A DNA stretch of 64,000 nt from Methylotenera mobilis 13. GTDB lineage: Bacteria; Pseudomonadota; Gammaproteobacteria; Burkholderiales; Methylophilaceae. The stretch lies in NCBI RefSeq assembly GCF_000384255.1, contig NZ_KB913035.1:1525362-1589361 (forward strand). Direction: 5' to 3'. Positions 8,103 to 64,000 of this stretch are shown here, piece by piece (within the stretch, counting starts at the first letter, position 1; each line of letters begins with the position of its first letter). The notes beneath the pieces are model-generated. The model was given only the letters and a program-made list of their open reading frames with translations. It did not search any database and had not been told where the DNA came from. Both the position numbers and the translations under genes were made by a program.

Positions 8103-8849
8103 ATGTTAGCAATTATTGGTGGCACAGGTCTGACGCAACTAGACAACTTAAACATTACTAGACGTTTAATCGTACGAACACCTTATGGTGAGCCATCACA
8201 GCCACTGATTTTTGGTGAAATTTCTGGACGAGAAGTTATTTTCTTAGCGCGTCATGGAAATGGACACACAATCCCACCACATGAAGTTAATTACCGTGCC
8301 AATATTGCAGCCTTGCATTTGCAAGGTGTGACTGAAATTGCTGCGATTGCGACGGTAGGGGGCATTCATCCCGATTTGTCAGCAGGTAAAATAGTGATTC
8401 CTCATCAGATTATTGATTACACCTATGGAAGAAAAACAACTTTTCATGACGGAATTAGTAACCCTGTTAAACATATTGACTTTACAGAGCCATACTGTCC
8501 CATGCTGCGTGAAAAGTGGAAGAAAGCTGCTATCGCAGTAGGTGAGGAGTTGATTGATCAAGGTGTATACGCAGCGACACAGGGGCCTAGACTTGAAACC
8601 GCCGCAGAGATCAATCGTTTGGAGCGTGATGGAGCTACCGTGGTAGGGATGACAGGGATGCCAGAAGCGGCATTGGCGCGTGAGTTGGGCATCAGCTATG
8701 CCACTATTTGTCCTGTAGCCAATTATGCAGCTGGACGAGGCGATAATTTACATGAAATTAAATATGAAGAAGTTATCTCCAACTTAAATCTCACGATGGT
8801 GCGAGTACGCAACATCATTGCCGAACTTGTAAAACAAAACGGGCATTAG
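8103..8849 (+). CDS. mtnP: S-methyl-5'-thioinosine / methylthioadenosine phosphorylase
   Basis: Purine nucleoside phosphorylase family 2 enzyme that phosphorolytically cleaves methylthio-nucleosides formed from polyamine synthesis, for methionine and purine salvage. The phosphate-binding start MLAIIGGTGLT, the segment FLARHGNGHTIPPHEVNYRA and the purine-site motif VGMTGMPEAALARELGI are clear. The sequence ATVGGIHPDLSAGK resembles the methylthioinosine-specific branch (described in Pseudomonas) more than classical MTAP, but substrate choice is inferred. 248 residues, complete. def follows 51 bases downstream. Confidence 0.85.
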   Translation: MLAIIGGTGLTQLDNLNITRRLIVRTPYGEPSQPLIFGEISGREVIFLARHGNGHTIPPHEVNYRANIAALHLQGVTEIAAIATVGGIHPDLSAGKIVIPHQIIDYTYGRKTTFHDGISNPVKHIDFTEPYCPMLREKWKKAAIAVGEELIDQGVYAATQGPRLETAAEINRLERDGATVVGMTGMPEAALARELGISYATICPVANYAAGRGDNLHEIKYEEVISNLNLTMVRVRNIIAELVKQNGH

Positions 8850-9994: not shown

Positions 9995-10020
9995 AAAGCC
10001 TTGATAATTCAAGGCTTTTT
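9995..10020 (+). terminator. intrinsic terminator between the two cupin genes
   Basis: The 10-bp perfect stem AAAGCCTTGA/TCAAGGCTTT with a four-base loop (TAAT) runs into a T-tract. It implies the two cupins are largely transcribed separately. Confidence 0.88.
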
Positions 10021-10074
10021 TATTGGCTGTTGCTTATCATTTGATTCAATATCAGCACGATAATGGAGGATGTC

Positions 10075-10347
10075 ATGAGTAAAATTACCGTAGAAAAACC
10101 AAGTCCTGAAAAGCTCGCTTCTTTAGGTGTGAAAAGTTGGCCTACTTGGGCTAAAGAGGTATCTCAATTTCCTTGGCGTTTTAGCACGCAGGAAATTGCC
10201 TATATTTTAGAAGGTGAGGTGACGGTTCAACCATCGGAAGGTGATCCAGTAAGTTTTACTGTAGGTGATCTGGTAACATTTCCTGCTGGATTATCATGCG
10301 TTTGGCATGTTAAAAAACCACTTAAAAAACATTATCAGCTTGGATAA
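10075..10347 (+). CDS. small cupin-domain protein (second of a tandem pair)
   Basis: A 90-residue paralogue of the cupin at 9666, with the same order of motifs: SWPTWAKEVSQFPWRF, then EIAYILEGEVTVQP, then GDLVTFPAGLSCVWHV. The start is the ATG at 10075, five bases after GGAGG. An in-frame ATG at 10063 overlaps that ribosome binding site and is unlikely. The first cupin motif keeps Glu but shows few histidines, as in its neighbour, so metal binding by the canonical His-His-Glu-His set is doubtful. Function unknown. It is convergent with glnD, whose stop is 27 bases away. Confidence 0.8.
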   Translation: MSKITVEKPSPEKLASLGVKSWPTWAKEVSQFPWRFSTQEIAYILEGEVTVQPSEGDPVSFTVGDLVTFPAGLSCVWHVKKPLKKHYQLG

Positions 10348-10374
10348 GCCGCTTGCTCATGCTTAGTGGTTGAT

Positions 10375-12996
10375 TTAAAGCTCATCGAGCAAAGCCATCT
10401 GCAATGAATTAACATGATTAAAATCTAAGCACTCACCATTTTTAGCTGAAATTAAGAAAGTATCCTCGGCTCGACTGCCTAAAGTGTTTATTTTTGCGTT
10501 ATGAAGCTTAATGTTGTGTTTCAGAAACTGCTGGGCTAGTGTGGCCAGGAGTCCAGGCCTATCGTTGGCAACAATATCGAGCTTATGGTTGCTGTTTTCA
10601 GCTTCTTTGGTGATTGTGATTTGTGCTTGAATCGGCATGTGCTTAACCTGGCGACTAACGCGTCCCTTGAGCGGAGACTCCAGTTGATATTGATCATCTA
10701 GTTGATTGGCAAGCTCCAACTCAATAAACTTCAATAATCCACTATAGCTCACAGACTTGCCCGACTGGTCTAATACAATAAAGCTATTTAATGCGTAACC
10801 ATGTTTGGTTGTGAAGATTTTTGCTTCAACTATGCCATAGCCCATGCGGTCGAAAAAGTTGCATATTCTAGCAAATAAGTCATTCTTGTCCTGAATGTAA
10901 ATCATCACTTGAATGCCGTCCCCATATGGGCTAAGCCTTGCACGTACGATAGGATTTTCACTGTATAAATGAGGTGTTAATAAACGGCTGTGCCAAGCTA
11001 TTTCATCGCTCTCATGACGAACAAAATAGTGCTCCCCGAACTGTTCCCAAAGTTGCTCGTAAGTGTGATTACTTAAACCAAATCGACTCAGCTTTTCGGA
11101 TGCTTCTTTAATTCGTCGTTGTATCGTTTGTTTTGCATGGAATGTAGGATGGGATAATGCGCGACTGGTGGCGGAATACAGGTTTTCTAATAACCTAGCT
11201 TTCCAAGCGTTCCACACGACTGGGCTTGTGCCGCGAATATCTGCAACAGTTAGCAAGTATAGTGCGTTTAATCTACGTTTGTTTTCAACAAAATCAGCAA
11301 ATGACTCAATGACACTTGGATCTGATAGATCAGTCTTTTGTGCAATTGATGACATTTTCAGATGCGCCTCAACTAACCAAGAAACTAAGGCACAATCGGC
11401 TTTAGGTAAGTGATGTAATTTGCAAAAATTGAATGCATCTATAGTACCTAATGCTGAATGATCTCCGCCACGGCCCTTAGCGATGTCGTGAAATAATGCA
11501 GCTAAGTATAGCAAGTGTGGCGAGTCAAACTCTGCAAAAATTTGGCTACAAAGGGGAAACTCGTGTTTAAGTTCAGGCTTTGCAAATCGACGTAAGTTGG
11601 CCAAAACATTAAGAATGTGCTCATCTACGGTATAAACGTGAAATAAATCATGTTGCATTTGACCAACAATTTTCCCAAAAGCAGGGATGTAGCTACCTAA
11701 TATACCGTATCGATTCATTGCGCGTAGCGCACGGTTGACACCACTAGGCTGTGACAATATCTCTATGAACGTTTTCTTGTTTAAAGCACTTTGTCTGAAG
11801 TCTTTGTTGACCAATGGTTTAACGCGTTGTAGGGTGCGTAACAATGTTGCACTCATCCCAGATAGCTCTGGGTGCTGCTGCAGCAATAAAAAGGCTTCAA
11901 AAATTGCAGAGGGGTCTTGTTGCAACATATTCGCCGACTTTGCTTCAAGTAAATCATTACGTGCTTCAAATTTATCATTGATCTTACGCACTGTCGGCGG
12001 TGAAGCAACAATAATCTCTTCAAGCAATTTCAGTACAATCTCATTCATGAGTTCAATAAACTTAACGCTTCTGTAATAGCTTTGCATGAGCTGTTCACTT
12101 GCTCGCCGGCGCTGAGTGTTTGTATAGCCTATGGTAGCTGCAAGATCGTTCTGAAAATCAAACAGTAACCGATCTTCGCGACGGCTACTTAAAAAGTGTA
12201 GATGACTGCGTAATAGCTGTAGTTTTTTCTCATGATGGCGAATGCGTCTTGCTTCTGTCACGGAGATGATTTGATCTTTTGCAAGCGACAGCCAAGGATT
12301 GCTGGGCGCTGCATACTGGTGATTCTTGACTTGTAAGCTGCGTGTTATCCAAATAATCATGTGCAAATCACGTAGACCGCCTGGACTTTCTTTGATATTT
12401 GGTTCTAAGTTATAAGCAGTGTCGTTGAATTTTGCGTGACGTAACTCTTGTTCTTTTAACTTGGCTTTTAGGAAGTCAATCGGGCTGATATTTTTCGCAA
12501 TATTAAACAAGAAGTTTTGATACATCGTATTGTTGCCAGACAATAAGCGAGATTCAAGCACATTTGTTTGTACCGTAATATCTTTTTGAGCTTCGCTAAT
12601 ACACTCTTCAAGATTTCTGACGCTATGCCCAATGTTTAGTCCAAGATCCCACATGAGGCCGATGAGGTACTCAATACTTTTGTTTAATTGGCTGTTCTCT
12701 TGAGACTCTGTCGGTATTAAAACCAGTAGGTCAATGTCAGAGTAAGGGAAGAGCTCACCACGACCATACCCACCAACCGCAATAAGGCAACAGGCTGGTT
12801 CAATGTGCAAGTCTGACCACAGTTCTATGAGCAGATGGTCAATAAATTTACAGTGCTGTTTAAATAGACGAGTGGTGTTAGGGTGTTGTGCGAACTCTTC
12901 TTTTAATGCCAAGAATTGCTTTTTTAAAGTGGTACGTAAAAAAGCAATTCTATCTTTTGAAATTTCGATGGGTTCTAAAAGGTTATCTACTTGCAT
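10375..12996 (-). CDS. glnD: bifunctional PII uridylyltransferase / uridylyl-removing enzyme
   Basis: Senses glutamine and adds UMP to or removes it from PII, controlling nitrogen assimilation. Domain order is complete in 873 residues. The nucleotidyltransferase core has GGYGRGELFPYSD (residues 75-87) followed by DID. The GlnD PII-uridylyltransferase helical region follows, then an HD hydrolase domain with FHDIAKGRGGDHS near residue 500. Two C-terminal ACT domains (about 700-780 and 800-873; NDRPGLLATLAQQF in the second) bind glutamine. The ATG at 12996 lacks a strong Shine-Dalgarno. It follows map on the same strand by 40 bases, a common betaproteobacterial order (map-glnD). Confidence 0.96.
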   Translation of the reverse strand: MQVDNLLEPIEISKDRIAFLRTTLKKQFLALKEEFAQHPNTTRLFKQHCKFIDHLLIELWSDLHIEPACCLIAVGGYGRGELFPYSDIDLLVLIPTESQENSQLNKSIEYLIGLMWDLGLNIGHSVRNLEECISEAQKDITVQTNVLESRLLSGNNTMYQNFLFNIAKNISPIDFLKAKLKEQELRHAKFNDTAYNLEPNIKESPGGLRDLHMIIWITRSLQVKNHQYAAPSNPWLSLAKDQIISVTEARRIRHHEKKLQLLRSHLHFLSSRREDRLLFDFQNDLAATIGYTNTQRRRASEQLMQSYYRSVKFIELMNEIVLKLLEEIIVASPPTVRKINDKFEARNDLLEAKSANMLQQDPSAIFEAFLLLQQHPELSGMSATLLRTLQRVKPLVNKDFRQSALNKKTFIEILSQPSGVNRALRAMNRYGILGSYIPAFGKIVGQMQHDLFHVYTVDEHILNVLANLRRFAKPELKHEFPLCSQIFAEFDSPHLLYLAALFHDIAKGRGGDHSALGTIDAFNFCKLHHLPKADCALVSWLVEAHLKMSSIAQKTDLSDPSVIESFADFVENKRRLNALYLLTVADIRGTSPVVWNAWKARLLENLYSATSRALSHPTFHAKQTIQRRIKEASEKLSRFGLSNHTYEQLWEQFGEHYFVRHESDEIAWHSRLLTPHLYSENPIVRARLSPYGDGIQVMIYIQDKNDLFARICNFFDRMGYGIVEAKIFTTKHGYALNSFIVLDQSGKSVSYSGLLKFIELELANQLDDQYQLESPLKGRVSRQVKHMPIQAQITITKEAENSNHKLDIVANDRPGLLATLAQQFLKHNIKLHNAKINTLGSRAEDTFLISAKNGECLDFNHVNSLQMALLDEL

Positions 12997-58464: not shown

Positions 58465-58905
58465 ATGGCTAAGACAATACATTTACCAAAGGCAAAAGGA
58501 AGTAACTGTTTTCCGTTACGACTCTCAACCATTCCAGCAAGAAAGTCGATGGGAACCACATTCTTGGCATTGTTGATCCTTAGTGGTTGTGCATCAACGC
58601 CACAACCACCTACATCAGATTTACTAGCAGCTGAACAAGCGATTGCTAGTGCAGAACGAGCACGTGTCGCAGACTATGCGTCGGTTGAACTGAGTGATGC
58701 GCGCGATAAACTATCGGCCGCCCGTAGTGCAGTAAGAGAAGAAAAAATGGTTCAGGCTCAGCATCTTGCCCAACAGGCAAAAGCTGACGCTGAGCTAGCT
58801 TCTGCCAAATCTGAAGTAGCCAAGGCACGTATAGTTAACGAGCAGATGCAAAAAGGTACCGACACACTAAAGCAGGAAATGCAGCGTAAGACAGGAGATC
58901 AATAA
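58465..58905 (+). CDS. DUF4398 domain lipoprotein
   Basis: 146 residues. A basic N-terminus and hydrophobic stretch end in the lipobox LILSGC, so the mature protein starts at about Cys-42 as a lipoprotein. After that comes an Ala-rich helical DUF4398 region (LLAAEQAIASAERARVADYA...). AAGGAGAAATAC precedes the ATG at 58465; in-frame sequence back to 58381 is not used. The TAA stop overlaps the next ATG (TAATG), so the two proteins are coupled. Confidence 0.82.
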   Translation: MAKTIHLPKAKGSNCFPLRLSTIPARKSMGTTFLALLILSGCASTPQPPTSDLLAAEQAIASAERARVADYASVELSDARDKLSAARSAVREEKMVQAQHLAQQAKADAELASAKSEVAKARIVNEQMQKGTDTLKQEMQRKTGDQ

Positions 58906-59894
58906 TGAACACACAAATTAGTAAAACCAAAACACTGATAGCTACCGCAGTAGCATCTGTAATTTTAGTGGCGTGCTCAGCTACACCAATTCAGCCAGTT
59001 CAGGTTAACAATGCTCGCAGTAAGTTGACACAGTTACAGTCTGATCAGCAGCTCGTAAAGCAAGCACCAGTTGCGATTAAGGAAGCGGAGGAGGCTGTGC
59101 GTGCCGCCGAGGAAATTCAGGGGGACAAAGAAAAAGGTGCACACTTGATGTATATTGCAGAACGCAAGGTTGACATCGCTCAGGCACTGGCAGAAAGCCG
59201 CCTGTTAGTAGACCAGCGTACAACCTTGAACCAGCAACGTGAGAGCGCACGTCTCGATTCACGCACGCAAGAAGTTGACATCGCACGCAGCAAGACCGAA
59301 TCAGCACGCATGGAAGCACTTGCTGCAAAGCAAGAAGCTGATAGTGCTCGTAGCAATGCTGAATCAGCACGTATTGAGACACTAGCTGCGCAGAAGGAAA
59401 TTGATAGCGCCCGGAGTAGCGCGGAGTCTGCACGTCTAAACACACTAGCTGCACAACAGGAGTCTGCCAATGCTCAACAAAAGACAGCTGACTTGCAGCG
59501 CCAGATTGCAGAACTTAATGCAAAACCCACTGAACGAGGTCTAGTTGTGACACTTGGAGATGTGTTATTTGACACTGGAAAGTCTGAACTTAAGAGTGGC
59601 GCAGCCACAAATCTCGCCAAACTAGCTAGCTTCCTCAATCAGTATATGGACCGCTCGGTGCTTATCGAAGGTCACACCGACAGCGTAGGCAACGAGGGCT
59701 ACAATCAGGCTTTGTCACAACGTCGTGCAGATTCTGTAAAGGTCTGGTTGATGAAGCAGGGTGTAAATTCGGATCGCCTCGTCACATCTGGCAAGGGTGA
59801 AATCTCACCGGTCTCTGGCAACGATAGCGCATCTGGTCGCCAGATGAACCGACGCGTTGAAGTCATCATTGAAAATACTGATGCGACCCCTTAG
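58905..59894 (+). CDS. OmpA-family lipoprotein with N-terminal DUF4398 region
   Basis: 329 residues. Lipobox LVACSA near residue 22, an Ala/Gln/Ser-rich helical stalk that includes tandem 21-residue repeats (about 132-194), then an OmpA-like peptidoglycan-binding domain. The domain's motifs are VLIEGHTDSVGNEGYNQAL, LSQRRADSVKVWL and the closing GRQMNRRVEVII. It would anchor the outer membrane to peptidoglycan through a coiled stalk. Together with the preceding DUF4398 lipoprotein it probably forms one envelope complex. Confidence 0.88.
   Translation: MNTQISKTKTLIATAVASVILVACSATPIQPVQVNNARSKLTQLQSDQQLVKQAPVAIKEAEEAVRAAEEIQGDKEKGAHLMYIAERKVDIAQALAESRLLVDQRTTLNQQRESARLDSRTQEVDIARSKTESARMEALAAKQEADSARSNAESARIETLAAQKEIDSARSSAESARLNTLAAQQESANAQQKTADLQRQIAELNAKPTERGLVVTLGDVLFDTGKSELKSGAATNLAKLASFLNQYMDRSVLIEGHTDSVGNEGYNQALSQRRADSVKVWLMKQGVNSDRLVTSGKGEISPVSGNDSASGRQMNRRVEVIIENTDATP
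59298..59486 (+). repeat. three in-frame 63-bp tandem repeats in the OmpA-type gene
   Basis: Units at 59298-59360, 59361-59423 and 59424-59486 each encode a 21-residue heptad-like segment beginning ESAR. A shorter degenerate copy lies just before. The copy number may vary between strains and set the stalk length. Confidence 0.8.
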
Positions 59895-59997
59895 TAAAAA
59901 CCAGTTAGATTATTTAACCATTATTAATGATCTAATCATATTAAGATCTAATCTAGGTGTAAATTTTAAATTTCCTGATTCAAACATATAAAGCATA

Positions 59998-60044
59998 AAA
60001 CACCTCGCAACAGTTTAATTGACTAACGACAGTTCGAGGTGTTT
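59998..60044 (+). terminator. hairpin terminator after the OmpA-type gene
   Basis: AAACACCTCG (59998-60007) pairs perfectly with CGAGGTGTTT (60035-60044) around a long 27-base loop. The T content after the stem is modest. It probably ends the lipoprotein operon. Confidence 0.6.
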
Positions 60045-60186
60045 AGTTATATAAGCAATTAAACATGTTCTTTGTACATAAATTTTTCCTAGAGCATGAA
60101 ATTTTTTGTGGATACAATACAGCTAGAAAATTCTCCAACAGTTGAATGACAATGCTTGTTCATGTGTTAATGAAAAGCCATATGAA

Positions 60187-60244
60187 GCCTCTGGAGGCCT
60201 TGTTGCGGTTGTGTGTGACATACTTGACTCCTTGCGTCACACAC
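60187..60244. repeat. two inverted repeats just left of the dif-like site
   Basis: GCCTC-TG-GAGGC at 60187-60198, and GTGTGTGAC (60211-60219) with GTCACACAC (60236-60244), 16-base loop. They end 19 bases before the dif-like sequence. Function unknown; accessory-protein or structural sites are possible. Confidence 0.45.
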
Positions 60245-60262
60245 CAAGTAACTACATACTTC

Positions 60263-60290
60263 ATTTCGTATAATGTATAGGAAATCTAAT
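60263..60290 (+). other. dif-like XerC/XerD recombination site (possible attachment site)
   Basis: The left 11 bases ATTTCGTATAA match the Neisseria-type XerC arm AGTTCGCATAA at 9 of 11 positions (consensus recalled from memory). The next six bases, TGTATA, equal the canonical dif centre. The right arm GGAAATCTAAT matches the XerD arm TTATGTTAAAT at only 5 of 11. A good XerC arm with a degenerate XerD arm is what I recall being described for the attP of the TLC satellite phage. The site stands 80 bases from the first accessory gene. Confidence 0.5.
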
Positions 60291-60369
60291 TCAGTTTTGT
60301 AGATTGAAACTTAGCTTTACGTTTTAATTTAATTTTGTTGGATACTGGATATCAACCAATGAAGGATTT

Positions 60370-60612
60370 TCAAACCTCGCTTTCATGTTTTATGAGTGCA
60401 GTTTTTTTAATATTCCCTGACTGGCTAAACTTACGCAAAGGCGCGCGCAAGCCAAATGTACATTGCAACGGCCATTGAATTTGCCACTCAGTGCCGACCT
60501 TTTCACCAGTAATACGACCTTGTGAGAGCAGGGCACGAACACGACGAGTTGAACAACCTAAGAAAGAGGCCGCGCGTTTAGTATCAACAAATTCAGGATT
60601 GCTTTTACTCAT
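60370..60612 (-). CDS. small helix-turn-helix (excisionase/MerR-like) DNA-binding protein
   Basis: 80 residues from the ATG at 60612. FVDTKRAASFLGCSTRRVRA is a typical HTH_17/excisionase-like recognition unit, followed by LLSQGRITGEKVGTEWQIQW, the wing. A basic tail follows. Its ATG overlaps the stop of the ribbon-helix-helix gene upstream by eight bases, so the two are translationally coupled. The in-frame extension upstream (to 60756) overlaps that gene and is rejected. Likely a directionality factor or repressor of the accessory element (inference). Confidence 0.72.
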   Translation of the reverse strand: MSKSNPEFVDTKRAASFLGCSTRRVRALLSQGRITGEKVGTEWQIQWPLQCTFGLRAPLRKFSQSGNIKKTALIKHESEV

Positions 60613-60916
60613 TAGGCACAAACCTACCATTAAGAACCAGCTTTCCATCAAGCATAGAAACAACACCACCATGCAAATTAACTGATTGTACAAAGTCAGT
60701 GATAAGCTCATAAGCCTGTTGGTATTCAGGATTCTGCATGGCGCGGAACGCTTCACCTCTATCAGTTGCTAAAGTAACGTGATACTCCCTGACAGTTTTA
60801 CGAAGAGCATGACGCACAACTTGAGAGATAGTTGTTCCTAAATACTCACATGCAATATCAGCCTCCTTTTTCTCCTTAGGATGAATACGAACAGTTAAAT
60901 TAATCAAATCAGACAT
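60605..60916 (-). CDS. ribbon-helix-helix (CopG/RelB-like) DNA-binding protein
   Basis: 103 residues. LINLTVRIHPKEKKEADIAC plus LGTTISQVVRHALRKTV form a strand-helix-helix unit at the N-terminus (about residues 3-45). The rest is a helical extension and NLHGGVVSMLDGKLVLNG. ATG 60916 is chosen because AGAGG lies six bases upstream; ATG 60919 is too close and an in-frame start at 60940 lies upstream of that site. No toxin gene is adjacent; the coupled partner is another DNA-binding protein. A palindrome upstream may be its own operator. Confidence 0.72.
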   Translation of the reverse strand: MSDLINLTVRIHPKEKKEADIACEYLGTTISQVVRHALRKTVREYHVTLATDRGEAFRAMQNPEYQQAYELITDFVQSVNLHGGVVSMLDGKLVLNGRFVPNE

Positions 60917-60928
60917 CATTTTCCTCTC

Positions 60929-60941
60929 TGTGCATTGCACA
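60929..60941. promoter_or_regulatory. palindromic operator candidate upstream of the RHH gene
   Basis: TGTGCA-T-TGCACA, a perfect palindrome with a one-base centre, ends about six bases before the RHH gene's ribosome binding site. RHH repressors often bind such short palindromes and autoregulate. This assignment is inference. Confidence 0.4.
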
Positions 60942-61028
60942 TAATTATTTTATTATCTTTACAATATAAAAAAATAATAAAGCCATATATAACGGGGTTT
61001 CCAATACCCTGTTACATAATTTTTGATT

Positions 61029-61237
61029 CCCCCCGTGTTACTAGGGGGGGTGACTCACTGAGCAGCTAGCTAATGCTAAGATGCTCAGTGAGTCAGCAAC
61101 ACAGTAAAAACCATTTAAAACCATGTCTACAGGGCGCGAAATCACCCTTAGTGAGCTATGAACATTAACATCACGCGATAGACGGCTTAGAAATGGGATA
61201 GGGTGCGTGTCTACATGGGGGAAGCGAGTTCCCCCAT
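61029..61237. repeat. cluster of three strong inverted repeats (hairpin-rich segment)
   Basis: (1) CCCCCC/GGGGGG with a nine-base spacer, 61029-61050. (2) A perfect 14-bp stem TGACTCACTGAGCA (61051-61064) with TGCTCAGTGAGTCA (61082-61095), 17-base loop. (3) A perfect 9-bp stem ATGGGGGAA (61215-61223) with TTCCCCCAT (61229-61237), five-base loop. Such density is typical of single-strand or double-strand origins and attachment folds of filamentous or rolling-circle elements. Confidence 0.65.
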
Positions 61238-61289
61238 ACCCCATAGAATGAGAAGAGGCGATTAAAGGCGTTTTTAGTGCATTAATCAT
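61041..61289 (-). CDS. possible small ORF overlapping the hairpin cluster (doubtful)
   Basis: An 82-codon frame whose ATG overlaps the stop of the XafT-like gene by eight bases (ATGATTAA), which suggests coupling. The peptide (GGTRFPHVDTHPIPF near residue 18) has no domain that I recognise, and two of its stretches are imposed by the inverted repeats. It may be a genuine small element protein, or non-coding origin/attachment DNA that stays open by chance. Confidence 0.35.
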   Translation of the reverse strand: MINALKTPLIASSHSMGYGGTRFPHVDTHPIPFLSRLSRDVNVHSSLRVISRPVDMVLNGFYCVADSLSILALASCSVSHPP

Positions 61290-61716
61290 GCTTACCCCCT
61301 GACACCAAGCGCAAAGTAGGTTTAATGCGGACTATTTGCGCCTCTTGTGTTGTTGCATTTCGGCGTTCATAATCAGCTTGCCAGTAACGTGCCATTGTGA
61401 AGTAGTGCGTTAGATATGTAAGTTCATGTTGTCGGAAGGGTCTGCCCACGGGTGACCAAAGGGTGTCGCCTTTGATTACCCAACCTTTCCAAGCCTCAGG
61501 CAACATTTCACCGTTGGCGAGGTAGCGCAGTAGCTTAAAAGCGGAATAGGGAATGCGGGTCACACCGCTTTCCCAATGCGCTACCGTTCTACTGGTGACC
61601 TGTAATAGCTTAGCCACCTGCTCAACGCTCAATCGGTTTATTTTCCTAAGTTCCACGAATTTTTCTCTATCAATAGGCTTGTATGGCTTGCGCTTGTATT
61701 TCTTAAGCCGTGGCAC
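61282..61716 (-). CDS. VC1465/XafT-like (DUF3653) Xer recombination activation factor family protein
   Basis: 144 residues. A basic start (RLKKYKRKPYKPIDREKF) precedes an Xre-like HTH (LSVEQVAKLLQVTSRTVAHW, about residues 29-48). A region typical of the DUF3653/VC1465 family follows: PEAWKGWVIKGDTLWSPVGRPFRQHEL, here split as PEAWKGWVIKGD and LWSPVGRPFR, about residues 77-100. In Vibrio TLC phage the VC1465 product activates XerD-mediated recombination (recalled). Related genes occur in Xanthomonas filamentous phages. It overlaps the upstream small gene by 14 bases. An ordinary element-borne repressor is the alternative. Confidence 0.68.
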   Translation of the reverse strand: MPRLKKYKRKPYKPIDREKFVELRKINRLSVEQVAKLLQVTSRTVAHWESGVTRIPYSAFKLLRYLANGEMLPEAWKGWVIKGDTLWSPVGRPFRQHELTYLTHYFTMARYWQADYERRNATTQEAQIVRIKPTLRLVSGGKHD

Positions 61717-62005
61717 TTACAGACGTTGACAATATGGGCATATTGTCATTGGCAGAAAGATGTTCGTAATGAAGCATCAAGGCATCAATCAAAGGATTAA
61801 GTAAATCACCGCTGTATTGAGTTGGATCATTTACAAGCTGCCGCTTGTTTAATGGGTTATTAAAAGCGAAATGCTCAAAAGCATAATCAAAATCAACAAT
61901 TGTTTTAGCAAGATTGTTAGAGCCAGAAAGCTCAAAACTGGCGAAAGCAATTGACGCCATTAAAAGTTCGAGTTGTTGCTTATTGAATTGCGGAAATTCT
62001 TTCAT
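61703..62005 (-). CDS. hypothetical protein, first gene of the XafT-like cluster
   Basis: 100 residues, acidic and helical, starting MKEFPQFNKQQLELLMASIA; no recognisable domain. AAGGA lies seven bases before the ATG, so translation is likely. It overlaps the XafT-like gene by 14 bases. Its promoter faces away from the TnsA-like gene. Confidence 0.6.
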   Translation of the reverse strand: MKEFPQFNKQQLELLMASIAFASFELSGSNNLAKTIVDFDYAFEHFAFNNPLNKRQLVNDPTQYSGDLLNPLIDALMLHYEHLSANDNMPILSTSVSATA

Positions 62006-62193
62006 TTTTTGTCCTTTTAGCTAAGAGCCAGGGAGAGTACGCGCGTTCAGGAAATACTGACTACATGTATGGGGTAATAAGTTGCTGATAGTTAATGATA
62101 ATGAATAATTTGTCAGTATTTATCATGAGGGATTTTAATATGATAATCCCTTTTATGATTGCAAATACAATAGATTAGGTTCACCATGGGCAT
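62006..62193. promoter_or_regulatory. divergent control region (possible transposon end) between the XafT-like cluster and tnsA
   Basis: A perfect 10-bp inverted repeat AAATACTGAC (62052-62061) / GTCAGTATTT (62112-62121) marks both sides. On the plus strand TTGTCA (62110-62115), an 18-base spacer and TTTAAT form a fair promoter. On the minus strand TAGTCA with TACTCT 18 bases away is a weaker mirror. A 7-bp perfect stem AGGGATT/AATCCCT (62128-62134, 62145-62151) overlaps the plus -10. Since tnsA in Tn7-like elements lies close to one transposon end, the end repeat may also be here, but I could not define it. Confidence 0.5.
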
Positions 62194-62898
62194 ATGGGTA
62201 ATCTTGGCAATAATATTAGCCTTGAAGAACTACTAACACCTCAGCCATTTGAGCGGGAGAACTATTGTTCTCATCTTTATGCTCCGTACTCCGCAAAACT
62301 TCATCGTCGGGTGAATTTATATACACATGATAGTTATGATCTGTGGGTAAGGCTTGAGAGTGACCAAGACACCATCCAATTTAATGAAAGCGTTCCTGCC
62401 TTTCCAATAAGCCTTCAAGATGGTCGAGCAATTGCCACATCGCCCAAAGCAATTTCCGTAAAAGCAGATGGTGCTGTTCTCATTCATACCTTTAGCACTG
62501 CATATATTGACGACCAATCCAAAAAATCTGAGTCCAAAAATATTGCTTGGCAACAATGGTGTGATATTTATGGCTTTCAGCATAAAGAATGGACTACTGA
62601 TTTACTAAAAGCCAATCCGATCGAACTGGCTAATTTGAAGCGGTTGCTGAGATTCGTGAGCGTTGCAGGATATATTCCTGATTACGCTATGGAGCGCTCG
62701 ATCCTTGCTGAATTAGAAAATGTTCGCAAGATTACGTTTGTTAAGCTGGTTCAACAATTTCCTTTGTCAGATCCAGAAGAAGTACAGACGTCACTTGCGA
62801 GACTGATAATTAGCCGTAAAGTCTATTCTGACATTCACATCTCTCCGTTAAGCATGATTACCGAGATTTCTGCATATCATGAGTTATCTAAAAACTAA
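62194..62898 (+). CDS. TnsA-like transposase endonuclease subunit (divergent)
   Basis: 234 residues. The stretch YDLWVRLESDQDTIQFNES (about 47-65), followed by ISLQDGRAIATSPKAISVKA and DGAVLIHTFST, resembles the catalytic core of TnsA-like proteins of Tn7-type elements (Glu in LESD, Asp in ADG). The Q-x-K pair expected next is not obvious. The C-terminal third is helical with a winged-helix look (FVKLVQQFPLSDPEEVQTSL). The call rests largely on position: the transposase gene starts inside its last 20 bases. TnsA cuts the 5' ends during cut-and-paste transposition. If the missing lysine is real it may be a non-catalytic partner. Confidence 0.6.
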   Translation: MGNLGNNISLEELLTPQPFERENYCSHLYAPYSAKLHRRVNLYTHDSYDLWVRLESDQDTIQFNESVPAFPISLQDGRAIATSPKAISVKADGAVLIHTFSTAYIDDQSKKSESKNIAWQQWCDIYGFQHKEWTTDLLKANPIELANLKRLLRFVSVAGYIPDYAMERSILAELENVRKITFVKLVQQFPLSDPEEVQTSLARLIISRKVYSDIHISPLSMITEISAYHELSKN

Positions 62899-64000
62899 TC
62901 GCAGAAATTATCCTGGACTCGAGAATATCGACGTCTGGAAAGTTCCAGAAATTCTAGGCCTGAACGATGAGACAAGACAGGACTACGAAAACAAGAAATC
63001 TGCGATTGATCAATTTAGCAATGGAACCCCTCTAAATGAAATTGAAAAAACAACGGGAATCTCAAGGCAATATTTACATTATTTGTTGAAACGTTGTACT
63101 TCACCAGATAAAAACGGTAACCCAATTGGATATTCCACTTTAATAAAAGGAAAACATACAGGCCTTCATCGGCGTAATTCGCTAGAAAAGTTAGATTCAG
63201 GACAAGCATTACCTGGATCTCTGCAAGCACTTTTTGTCAAATACCCAACATTATATAAGACGATGGACAAACTGATTGTGCATGGGATTTCTCCTGAGTC
63301 TAACCGAACCAATTCACGGCTGACTTGGCATCACATTCACGAAATTTTCTTAAGTCAATGTAATTCATTGGGAATATCCCCACCTTCATATCCTTTTTGT
63401 AGCAATTCAAACGGTAAATTTGCCCTAACTAGTTGGGGTAAGAAAATACTTGCAGAAAGTAAGATTCTAAATGTGGCATCGAGGGAGACTCTGGATCATT
63501 TACATGAAAACCTTAGGGCTCCACCTAGTCGATGCTATGAGCGAGTTGAGGCGGATGGACATTACGTAGATGTCAATTGGACGTTAGAGGTTTCAGGTCT
63601 GAATGGCGAGGGCGTTGTATATTGCAAGGTTGCTCGTCTGTGGTTGATCGCTTTGCTGGAAGTCAAAAGCACAGCTGTTATTGGATATAGCATTTCATTA
63701 GGTCGCAATTACAATGCTTCAGATGTAACCAGAGCCATTCGAAGTAGCCTAGTGCCATGGCAACCTCGAGAGTTAACTGTATCAACAATTTCATACAAAC
63801 CTGGGGAATGTCTACCGAATGCGCTTATGTCAGAACTCAGTTATGTATGTTATGACGAATTATGGATCGACAATGCAAAAAGCCATTTAAGCAGCATATT
63901 TTTTACGATGCTAGAGCGCAGCGTAAATGCGGTTCCTGTTTTTGGTCCAAAAGAATCACCCAATGTTCGTCCGAGAATAGAGCTGTTATTTGATTTGCTT
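62879..64000 (+). CDS. TnsB/TniA-like DDE transposase, 3' part beyond the window
   Basis: 374 codons are open to the right edge, so the protein is incomplete. The N-terminal HTH is GTPLNEIEKTTGISRQYLHY (about residues 48-68). The retroviral-integrase-type catalytic core has Asp 226 in VEADGHYVDVNW, Asp 331 in WIDNAKSHLS and Glu 368 in RPRIELLF, with about 36 residues between the second and third, as expected for DDE enzymes. VIGYSISLGRNYNASDVTRA between them is the usual TnsB-type segment. ATG 62879 overlaps tnsA by 20 bases. TnsC and targeting genes should follow outside. Confidence 0.82.
   Translation, partial: MSYLKTNRRNYPGLENIDVWKVPEILGLNDETRQDYENKKSAIDQFSNGTPLNEIEKTTGISRQYLHYLLKRCTSPDKNGNPIGYSTLIKGKHTGLHRRNSLEKLDSGQALPGSLQALFVKYPTLYKTMDKLIVHGISPESNRTNSRLTWHHIHEIFLSQCNSLGISPPSYPFCSNSNGKFALTSWGKKILAESKILNVASRETLDHLHENLRAPPSRCYERVEADGHYVDVNWTLEVSGLNGEGVVYCKVARLWLIALLEVKSTAVIGYSISLGRNYNASDVTRAIRSSLVPWQPRELTVSTISYKPGECLPNALMSELSYVCYDELWIDNAKSHLSSIFFTMLERSVNAVPVFGPKESPNVRPRIELLFDLL

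Follow-up and report, generated by a model that had tools for sequence, protein, structure and literature searches.

A probable XafT-encoding, Xer-exploiting element split by a Tn7-like transposon near dif in Methylotenera mobilis

Genes and features beside a dif-like half-site

We analysed a window of 64,000 nucleotides (C1:1525362-1589361) from the genome of Methylotenera mobilis 13, which is a single contig (C1) of 2,803,787 bp. Towards the right edge of the window a chromosomal gene, a partial copy of dif, four small minus-strand genes and the beginning of a Tn7-like transposon follow one another:

58905..59894, plus strand: ompA-type gene, a chromosomal landmark; the half-site lies 374 bp downstream
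60165..60262, no strand: left flank, similar in sequence to a right end from a different Xer element; left limit 60165 set by eye
60263-60290, plus strand: attL-like half-site with XerC arm, centre and degenerate XerD position
60370..60612, minus strand: excisionase-like helix-turn-helix protein, 80 aa; TIGR01764 23.6 bits (cut-off 28.8) and HTH_17 18.3 bits (cut-off 27), both below
60605..60940, minus strand: ribbon-helix-helix RelB/DinJ-like protein, 111 aa; TIGR02384 25.9 bits (cut-off 45.65) and RelB 18.3 bits (cut-off 22.4), both below
61117..61242, no strand: conserved noncoding region with a box near 61117-61150 and the hairpin GTCTACATGGGG-loop-CCCCATACCCC at 61209-61242; filamentous phages have it too
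61282..61716, minus strand: XafT (VC1465/DUF3653 family), 144 aa
61703..62005, minus strand: small protein, 100 aa; no family over cut-off; its position is that of the 88-96 aa ORF of sister elements
62040..62124, plus strand: left end of a Tn7-like transposon (element 1), with CGCGCG at 62040-62045 and TnsB-type repeats AAATACTGAC at 62052-62061 and, inverted, GATAAATACTGACA at 62111-62124
62194..62898, plus strand: 234-aa protein where gene order places TnsA, and named on that basis; unmatched in Pfam and NCBIfam
62879..64000, continuing past the window, plus strand: TnsB-like transposase, 642 aa in all; profile match to TnsB

The half-site consists of the XerC arm ATTTCGTATAA (60263-60273), the centre TGTATA (60274-60279) and, in the XerD position, GGAAATCTAAT (60280-60290), which matches the host XerD arm at 5 of 11 letters. 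Arm and centre are identical to those of the host dif, with 15 identical bases common to the two sites, and the XerD arm has been lost. The first-pass annotation had described the same near-perfect XerC arm, TGTATA centre and poor XerD arm, and the minus-strand accessory ORFs that it placed beside the site are present. Searching the 2.80-Mb genome with TTCGTATAATGTATANNANNT at ≤2 mismatches returned two places, the half-site and a full dif, GCTTCGTATAATGTATATTATGTAAAAT, on the minus strand at C1:1656118-1656145; TTCGYATAATGTATA at ≤1 mismatch found the same two, with one match for the backward control pattern, and a reversed-sequence control gave no match at ≤2 mismatches in 637,759 bases from 48 loci of relatives. 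A second XerC arm with TGTATA, which had been expected beyond the accessory genes, was therefore found, 70.5 kb away at dif, but it is inverted relative to the half-site (half-site on the plus strand, dif on the minus), an arrangement that we attribute to a Tn7-like insertion and an inversion. A full-length element with a directly oriented attR beyond the window was considered and rejected, the only other site being the inverted dif. The genome thus holds a better dif elsewhere, yet mobile elements fill its surroundings, and its existence does not refute an integrated element because integration of the type known from the TLC phage predicts a regenerated full dif at the far end.

Comparison with relatives supplied the empty site. 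The congener G026 has an intact dif 433 bp downstream of an ompA gene that shares 88% identity with 58905-59894; homology between the two genomes extends up to ompA and then ends, and the G026 sequence beyond dif maps to 1716771-1724481 in M. mobilis 13, 131 kb downstream, so the two sides of the ancestral dif now lie about 131 kb apart with dif inside. At E ≤1e-30, three of 52 Methylotenera genomes have a match to ompA, one of the matches being weak and partial, and the empty site of the window element therefore comes from the single genome G026. To the left of the half-site, the stretch 60214-60275 aligns with 86% identity over 63 bp to sequence on the left of the att site of an integrated filamentous phage (L088), and the region 60165..60262 is also similar to the sequence left of dif in G072. 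Another genome, G025, has two dif-like sites on separate contigs (L100 and L101), one with a changed XerD arm.

Resemblance of the gene at 61282-61716 to VC1465/XafT, proposed from the sequence alone, was borne out by profile search: the product scores 88.4 bits against NF040522 (VC1465_fam; cut-off 70) and 36.5 bits against DUF3653 (cut-off 22.4), and because the VC1465 family cut-off is passed it is not a generic Xre repressor. An ORF at 61041-61289 overlies the stretch conserved as DNA and is for that reason probably no gene. No replicase match was obtained among the window ORFs at E ≤1 or in eight sister proteins at E ≤0.01; coat or morphogenesis genes were likewise absent from the window ORFs and the eight sister proteins, no integrase occurs among the satellite ORFs of the window, Rfam gave no match in 59900-64000, and PADLOC found no defence genes among four proteins.

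We are confident, though short of certain, that a Xer-exploiting integrative element (IMEX) of about 1.83 kb lies in the window with one of its ends (60263-60290) and almost all of its interior (up to 62039), a judgement that covers the whole explanation including the mechanism, helper use, transposon insertion and inversion developed below. This restored length adds the CG run and the 44 bp beside dif to the 1775 bp that precede the transposon tip, and is similar to that of the sister elements; the right end of the window copy is reconstructed from two separated flanks. We found no clear target duplication, and the data showed neither an excised circle nor a recombination product of the window copy.

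XafT elements in Methylotenera and the Burkholderiales

To place the window element among its relatives, we searched 52 Methylotenera genomes for XafT. Matches at E ≤0.001 occur in 19 of them, and 11 genes in 10 genomes exceed the NF040522 cut-off; among 14 control genomes, four match at the loose threshold and none over the cut-off. The XafT genes have dN/dS values of 0.16-0.25 in all five pairs compared, with the G028 pair near saturation (dS 2.6). A half-site element surrounds 10 of the 11 over-cut-off genes: that of the window, two in G007, and one each in G024, G028, G031, G066, G070 (core with one mismatch), G071 and G003, where the element spans a contig break and the half-site lies with the remainder of XafT on a second contig. 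The exception, G072, has a XafT gene shortened beside a transposase-like ORF, on a contig without a half-site. None of the dif loci without XafT that we examined contains the half-site at 0-1 mismatch; two of them (L100 and L114) contain the core at two mismatches, taken as chance. Separately, G013, G020, G021 and G031 encode a longer XafT-like form (frames of 231-236 aa, 56.7-68.8 bits, below the cut-off), with no core at ≤2 mismatches on the stretches examined.

Seven complete sister elements in Methylotenera, 1.4-2.7 kb from core to core, are bounded by such sites, each with a full dif or the next element as its far boundary. G013 provides the empty site for the G028 element, both flanks aligning at 94-96%. 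Across the order, XafT at E ≤1e-12 is present in 8 of 300 sampled Burkholderiales genomes, M. mobilis 13 included. Eight XafT loci of the order outside our genome comprise four with two exact cores, one with a single core and three with none, so that half-site and XafT are paired at five of eight; a backward control on these loci gave two matches at ≤3 mismatches. Core-to-core lengths are as follows:

Within the genus: G007, 1721 and 1720 bp (in tandem); G024, 1706 bp; G070, 1694 bp; G071, 1519 bp; G066, 1433 bp; G028, 2716 bp
Outside the genus, two-core elements: G099, 1556 bp; G166, 1772 bp; G205, 2031 bp; G332, 1986 bp

The sister elements encode XafT and small proteins, and their right-end sequences vary. 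The G028 and G031 satellites each contain an extra gene (L067:7916-8914 and L075:2061-2672) with no Pfam or PADLOC match.

These counts bear on whether the half-site could be dif-like through chance or decay, with an unrelated Xre-type regulator as its neighbour. Its poor XerD arm and the splitting of the copy by a transposon would suit such an origin, but we consider it very improbable: the site shares 15 bases with the host dif and occupies the position of dif in G026, the neighbouring protein scores above the VC1465 family cut-off, and the pairing of half-site with XafT recurs around 10 of 11 genes in the genus and at five of eight loci beyond it. The half-site is accordingly not ordinary intergenic DNA, and half-site, XafT, sister elements and the empty site in G026 together support the earlier proposal of one end of a TLC-like element.

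Midonet et al. (PNAS, 2019) reportedly described XafT-encoding IMEXs in gamma- and betaproteobacteria, which contradicts the first-pass statement that no such element was known in this group; the elements found here likewise combine a XafT-like gene with dif usage in betaproteobacterial hosts. The window element fits the IMEX definition, as it occupies dif by way of a dif-like site and has no integrase of its own, its second end being deduced. The TLC satellite phage of Vibrio cholerae integrates at dif through a site whose XerC part and centre are nearly identical to dif and whose XerD part is degenerate, has no morphogenesis genes and possesses an autonomous replication module, according to PMC4246890. 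It encodes XafT, whose role in TLC phage is treated in PMC9765430. The window element resembles TLC in its location at dif, its XerC arm and centre matching the host dif, its degenerate XerD position, its XafT and its lack of morphogenesis genes. Unlike TLC it has no detected replication module, so we do not class it as TLC phage proper; the XafT elements found here measure 1.4-2.7 kb. A literature search returned no minimal XafT satellites by title, which is weak evidence of novelty given that most subscription papers fall outside its coverage.

Shared hairpins and tandem arrays with filamentous phages

The hairpin of the window occurs in 5 of 11 elements (the window, G007 twice, G024 and, with one change, G070) and again in a Zot-encoding contig of G031; it is absent from the remaining six, two of which have another hairpin. 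Folded as single-stranded DNA, the region has a z-score of -2.21, with 4 of 200 shuffles folding as well, and we regard the conserved noncoding region with its hairpin as a candidate origin or packaging signal. XafT itself has only weak matches among cultured phages (five Vibrio phage records: Vf33 twice, Vf12 twice and Vaf1) and plasmids (three), and a protein search of IMG/VR returned a single relative. A pattern scan of IMG/VR for the hairpin returned 14 contigs, 11 of which encode Zot (10 by phmmer and the eleventh by Pfam) and one of which, L163, encodes XafT. The three contigs with the pattern and no detected Zot (L154, L158 and L165) are viral contigs of 4.4 kb, possibly another kind of small single-stranded DNA phage. 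The second hairpin is exact in the G003 and G031 elements, in a phage beside dif in G022 and in five IMG/VR contigs (L172-L176), which encode Zot and a G2P-type replicase; in four of these five, L172 being the exception, a XerC arm follows the hairpin after 49-63 bp.

Two arrays place a XafT element directly before a phage. In L163, whose ends are equal over 17 bases, a 1.57-kb XafT element precedes a 6.25-kb phage, with cores at 3, 1572 and 7817. In G332, from another genus, a 1.99-kb XafT element is followed by a phage and then a full dif (L192, sites at 8827, 10813 and 17552); Zot and a G2P-type Rep lie between the last two sites, and XafT is confined to the first part, with none in the phage part. 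As only the first part of each array encodes XafT, the arrangement suggests that XafT may serve both satellite and phage. No filamentous-phage Zot was found in the M. mobilis 13 genome.

From these shared hairpins and arrays we infer that XafT elements are probably helper-dependent satellites of filamentous phages, to which they would supply XafT. An alternative is that a single larger filamentous phage has an integration module that can detach or be deleted, and that the small elements are this module, solo copies being remnants left after Xer recombination removed the phage part. L163 and L192 do contain both parts with three sites, their phage part has no XafT of its own, and hairpins are common to phage parts and solo elements; nevertheless, the solo form is the commoner (seven complete elements in the genus and three of the four two-site elements outside), G007 holds two elements in tandem without a phage, the right-end sequences of the elements differ, and L159 and L162, relatives of the L163 phage, are phages of its group without XafT. 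The last two have no XerC-plus-centre core at ≤3 mismatches and are not independent, since they share 3391 identical bases. We therefore consider a deleted module unlikely, although it is the most serious of the alternatives weighed here, and favour helper-dependent satellites.

RS1, the satellite of CTX phage, has its own replication gene and follows the CTX-type, XerC-first route. The elements described here are like RS1 in being small, probable satellites that can stand beside a filamentous prophage at dif, and would differ from it in both of those respects. Table 2 of PMC4246890 gives RS1 as a relative of CTX.

Tn7-like transposons around an inverted dif

Element 1 is a Tn7-like transposon with TnsB, a TnsC ATPase, TniQ and ends made of TnsB repeats. 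A profile built from four TnsB-like proteins matches solved TnsB chains in the PDB at E 3.5e-4, and downstream of TnsB lie a TnsC-like AAA_22 protein (43.2 bits; cut-off 27) and a TniQ-like protein (20.6 bits, below the cut-off of 27). Its repeats stand at window position 62111 and again 44 bp from dif, on the XerC side. Another such element (element 2) has its tns genes at 1711163-1716349, with AAA_22 over the cut-off and TniQ and Mu-transpos_C below; its repeats occur both near 1716.4 kb and next to dif, on the XerD side. The TnsB proteins of the two are only 23-26% identical. Both lie in a 131-kb insert at the ancestral dif (C1:1585626-1716771), facing dif from both sides; element 1 carries copper/heavy-metal-type cargo genes, recognised by visual inspection of the ORF sequences, and element 2 nitrate-reductase-type genes.

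The transposon tips are swapped, each lying across dif from the position expected for its element: the type GATAAGTACTGACA of element 1 is on the XerC side and the type AATTAGTTCG of element 2 on the XerD side. Around dif, pairs of XerC/XerD-like integrase and kfrA genes mirror each other (C1:1653578-1658585), and the mirrored arms, otherwise about 52-92% alike, contain 638 identical bases (1654200-1654837). With the XerC model the integrase reaches 98.5 bits, well short of the cut-off of 335. A single inversion between the mirrored integrase genes, which would have turned dif round, accounts for all three features: the exchanged tips, the reversed orientation of dif and the tract of identity. 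Had dif not been flipped, the tips near it would belong to the neighbouring element of the same side. Orientation alone is compatible with a right end of element 2 at 1656.2 kb, and the shortness of AATTAGTTCG is a weak point, since 10 matches at chance level occur in 126 kb with ≤1 mismatch. We nonetheless find this improbable, as the repeat types on the two sides of dif are those of the opposite elements, the 638 identical bases mark a recent exchange between the mirrored arms, and G019 has element-1-type repeats on the XerC side of its dif in the expected orientation.

In G019, these repeats and a CG run lie 45 bp before the XerC arm, with tns genes on another contig. In G012, which has the same kfrA/integrase pair (L104, ~9996-12444), a CG run lies 41 bp before the XerC arm, and the sequence abutting the transposon tip is of the kind seen at satellite right ends; searches of the G012 genome for TnsB and TniQ gave no match. 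Three genomes thus suggest, rather than prove, Tn7-like targeting of dif in Methylotenera, since the tns genes are off-contig in G019 and undetected in G012. TniQ genes occur at 35 places in 15 of 52 genomes of the genus, mostly away from dif, and only the two elements of M. mobilis 13 and, with its dif on another contig, that of G019 are linked to it. No dif core was found in G068, which has TniQ; the left flanks of G019 and G068 gave only self-matches in blastn against the dif loci, and a protein in the G019 flank shares 38% identity with the protein next to the G026 dif. Among 399 genomes, our own included, TnsB relatives (29% identical) occur in two others, both outside the genus, with no dif core at ≤1 mismatch on stretches ending at contig ends, which leaves dif targeting unconfirmed beyond Methylotenera.

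A broader reading, which we hold tentatively and place just short of an even call, is that dif serves as a docking site both for XafT satellites, as the detachable integration half of filamentous phages (the satellite bringing XafT, the phage replicase and coat), and for a lineage of Tn7-like elements whose attachment site is dif, the right end being inserted 41-45 bp from the XerC arm; the XerC/XerD-like recombinase gene with KfrA at each inner end would then be a candidate target selector. The whole word 'dif' is absent from the accessible parts of two Tn7 surveys (PMC10293859 and PMC8649781), and a literature search by title returned no report of Tn7-like insertion beside dif, which looks newer than XafT elements in betaproteobacteria. 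The Tn5053 family, called 'res site hunters' in the title of a paper, similarly places transposons beside a site-specific recombination site; it uses the res sites of resolvases, whereas here a TnsB/TnsC/TniQ element lies beside the Xer site dif.

We propose that the satellite circle would carry a site with the XerC arm and centre of the host and without the XerD arm. As in TLC, XafT is predicted to activate XerD, allowing XerC/XerD, with XerD acting first, to insert the circle at dif without FtsK, so that a half-site and a full dif would come to bound the insert. Because the satellite has no detected replicase or coat genes, replication and packaging would probably come from a co-resident filamentous phage through the shared hairpin. 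A Tn7-like transposon then probably entered the right end of the satellite, 44 bp from dif, with the second Tn7-like element on the other side of dif, and recombination between the mirrored integrase genes probably flipped the short dif-bearing segment. Such an insertion and flip would account for a half-site and dif 70.5 kb apart in opposite orientations, and for a copy now trapped.

Exploiting chromosome dimer resolution would take very little DNA: two sites, XafT and a few small genes. Such elements are tied to specific filamentous phages by the hairpins they have in common and by the tandem arrays, and helper dependence is therefore testable. As a landing place for Tn7-like transposons with metal-resistance cargo, dif may in addition be parasitised in a second way.
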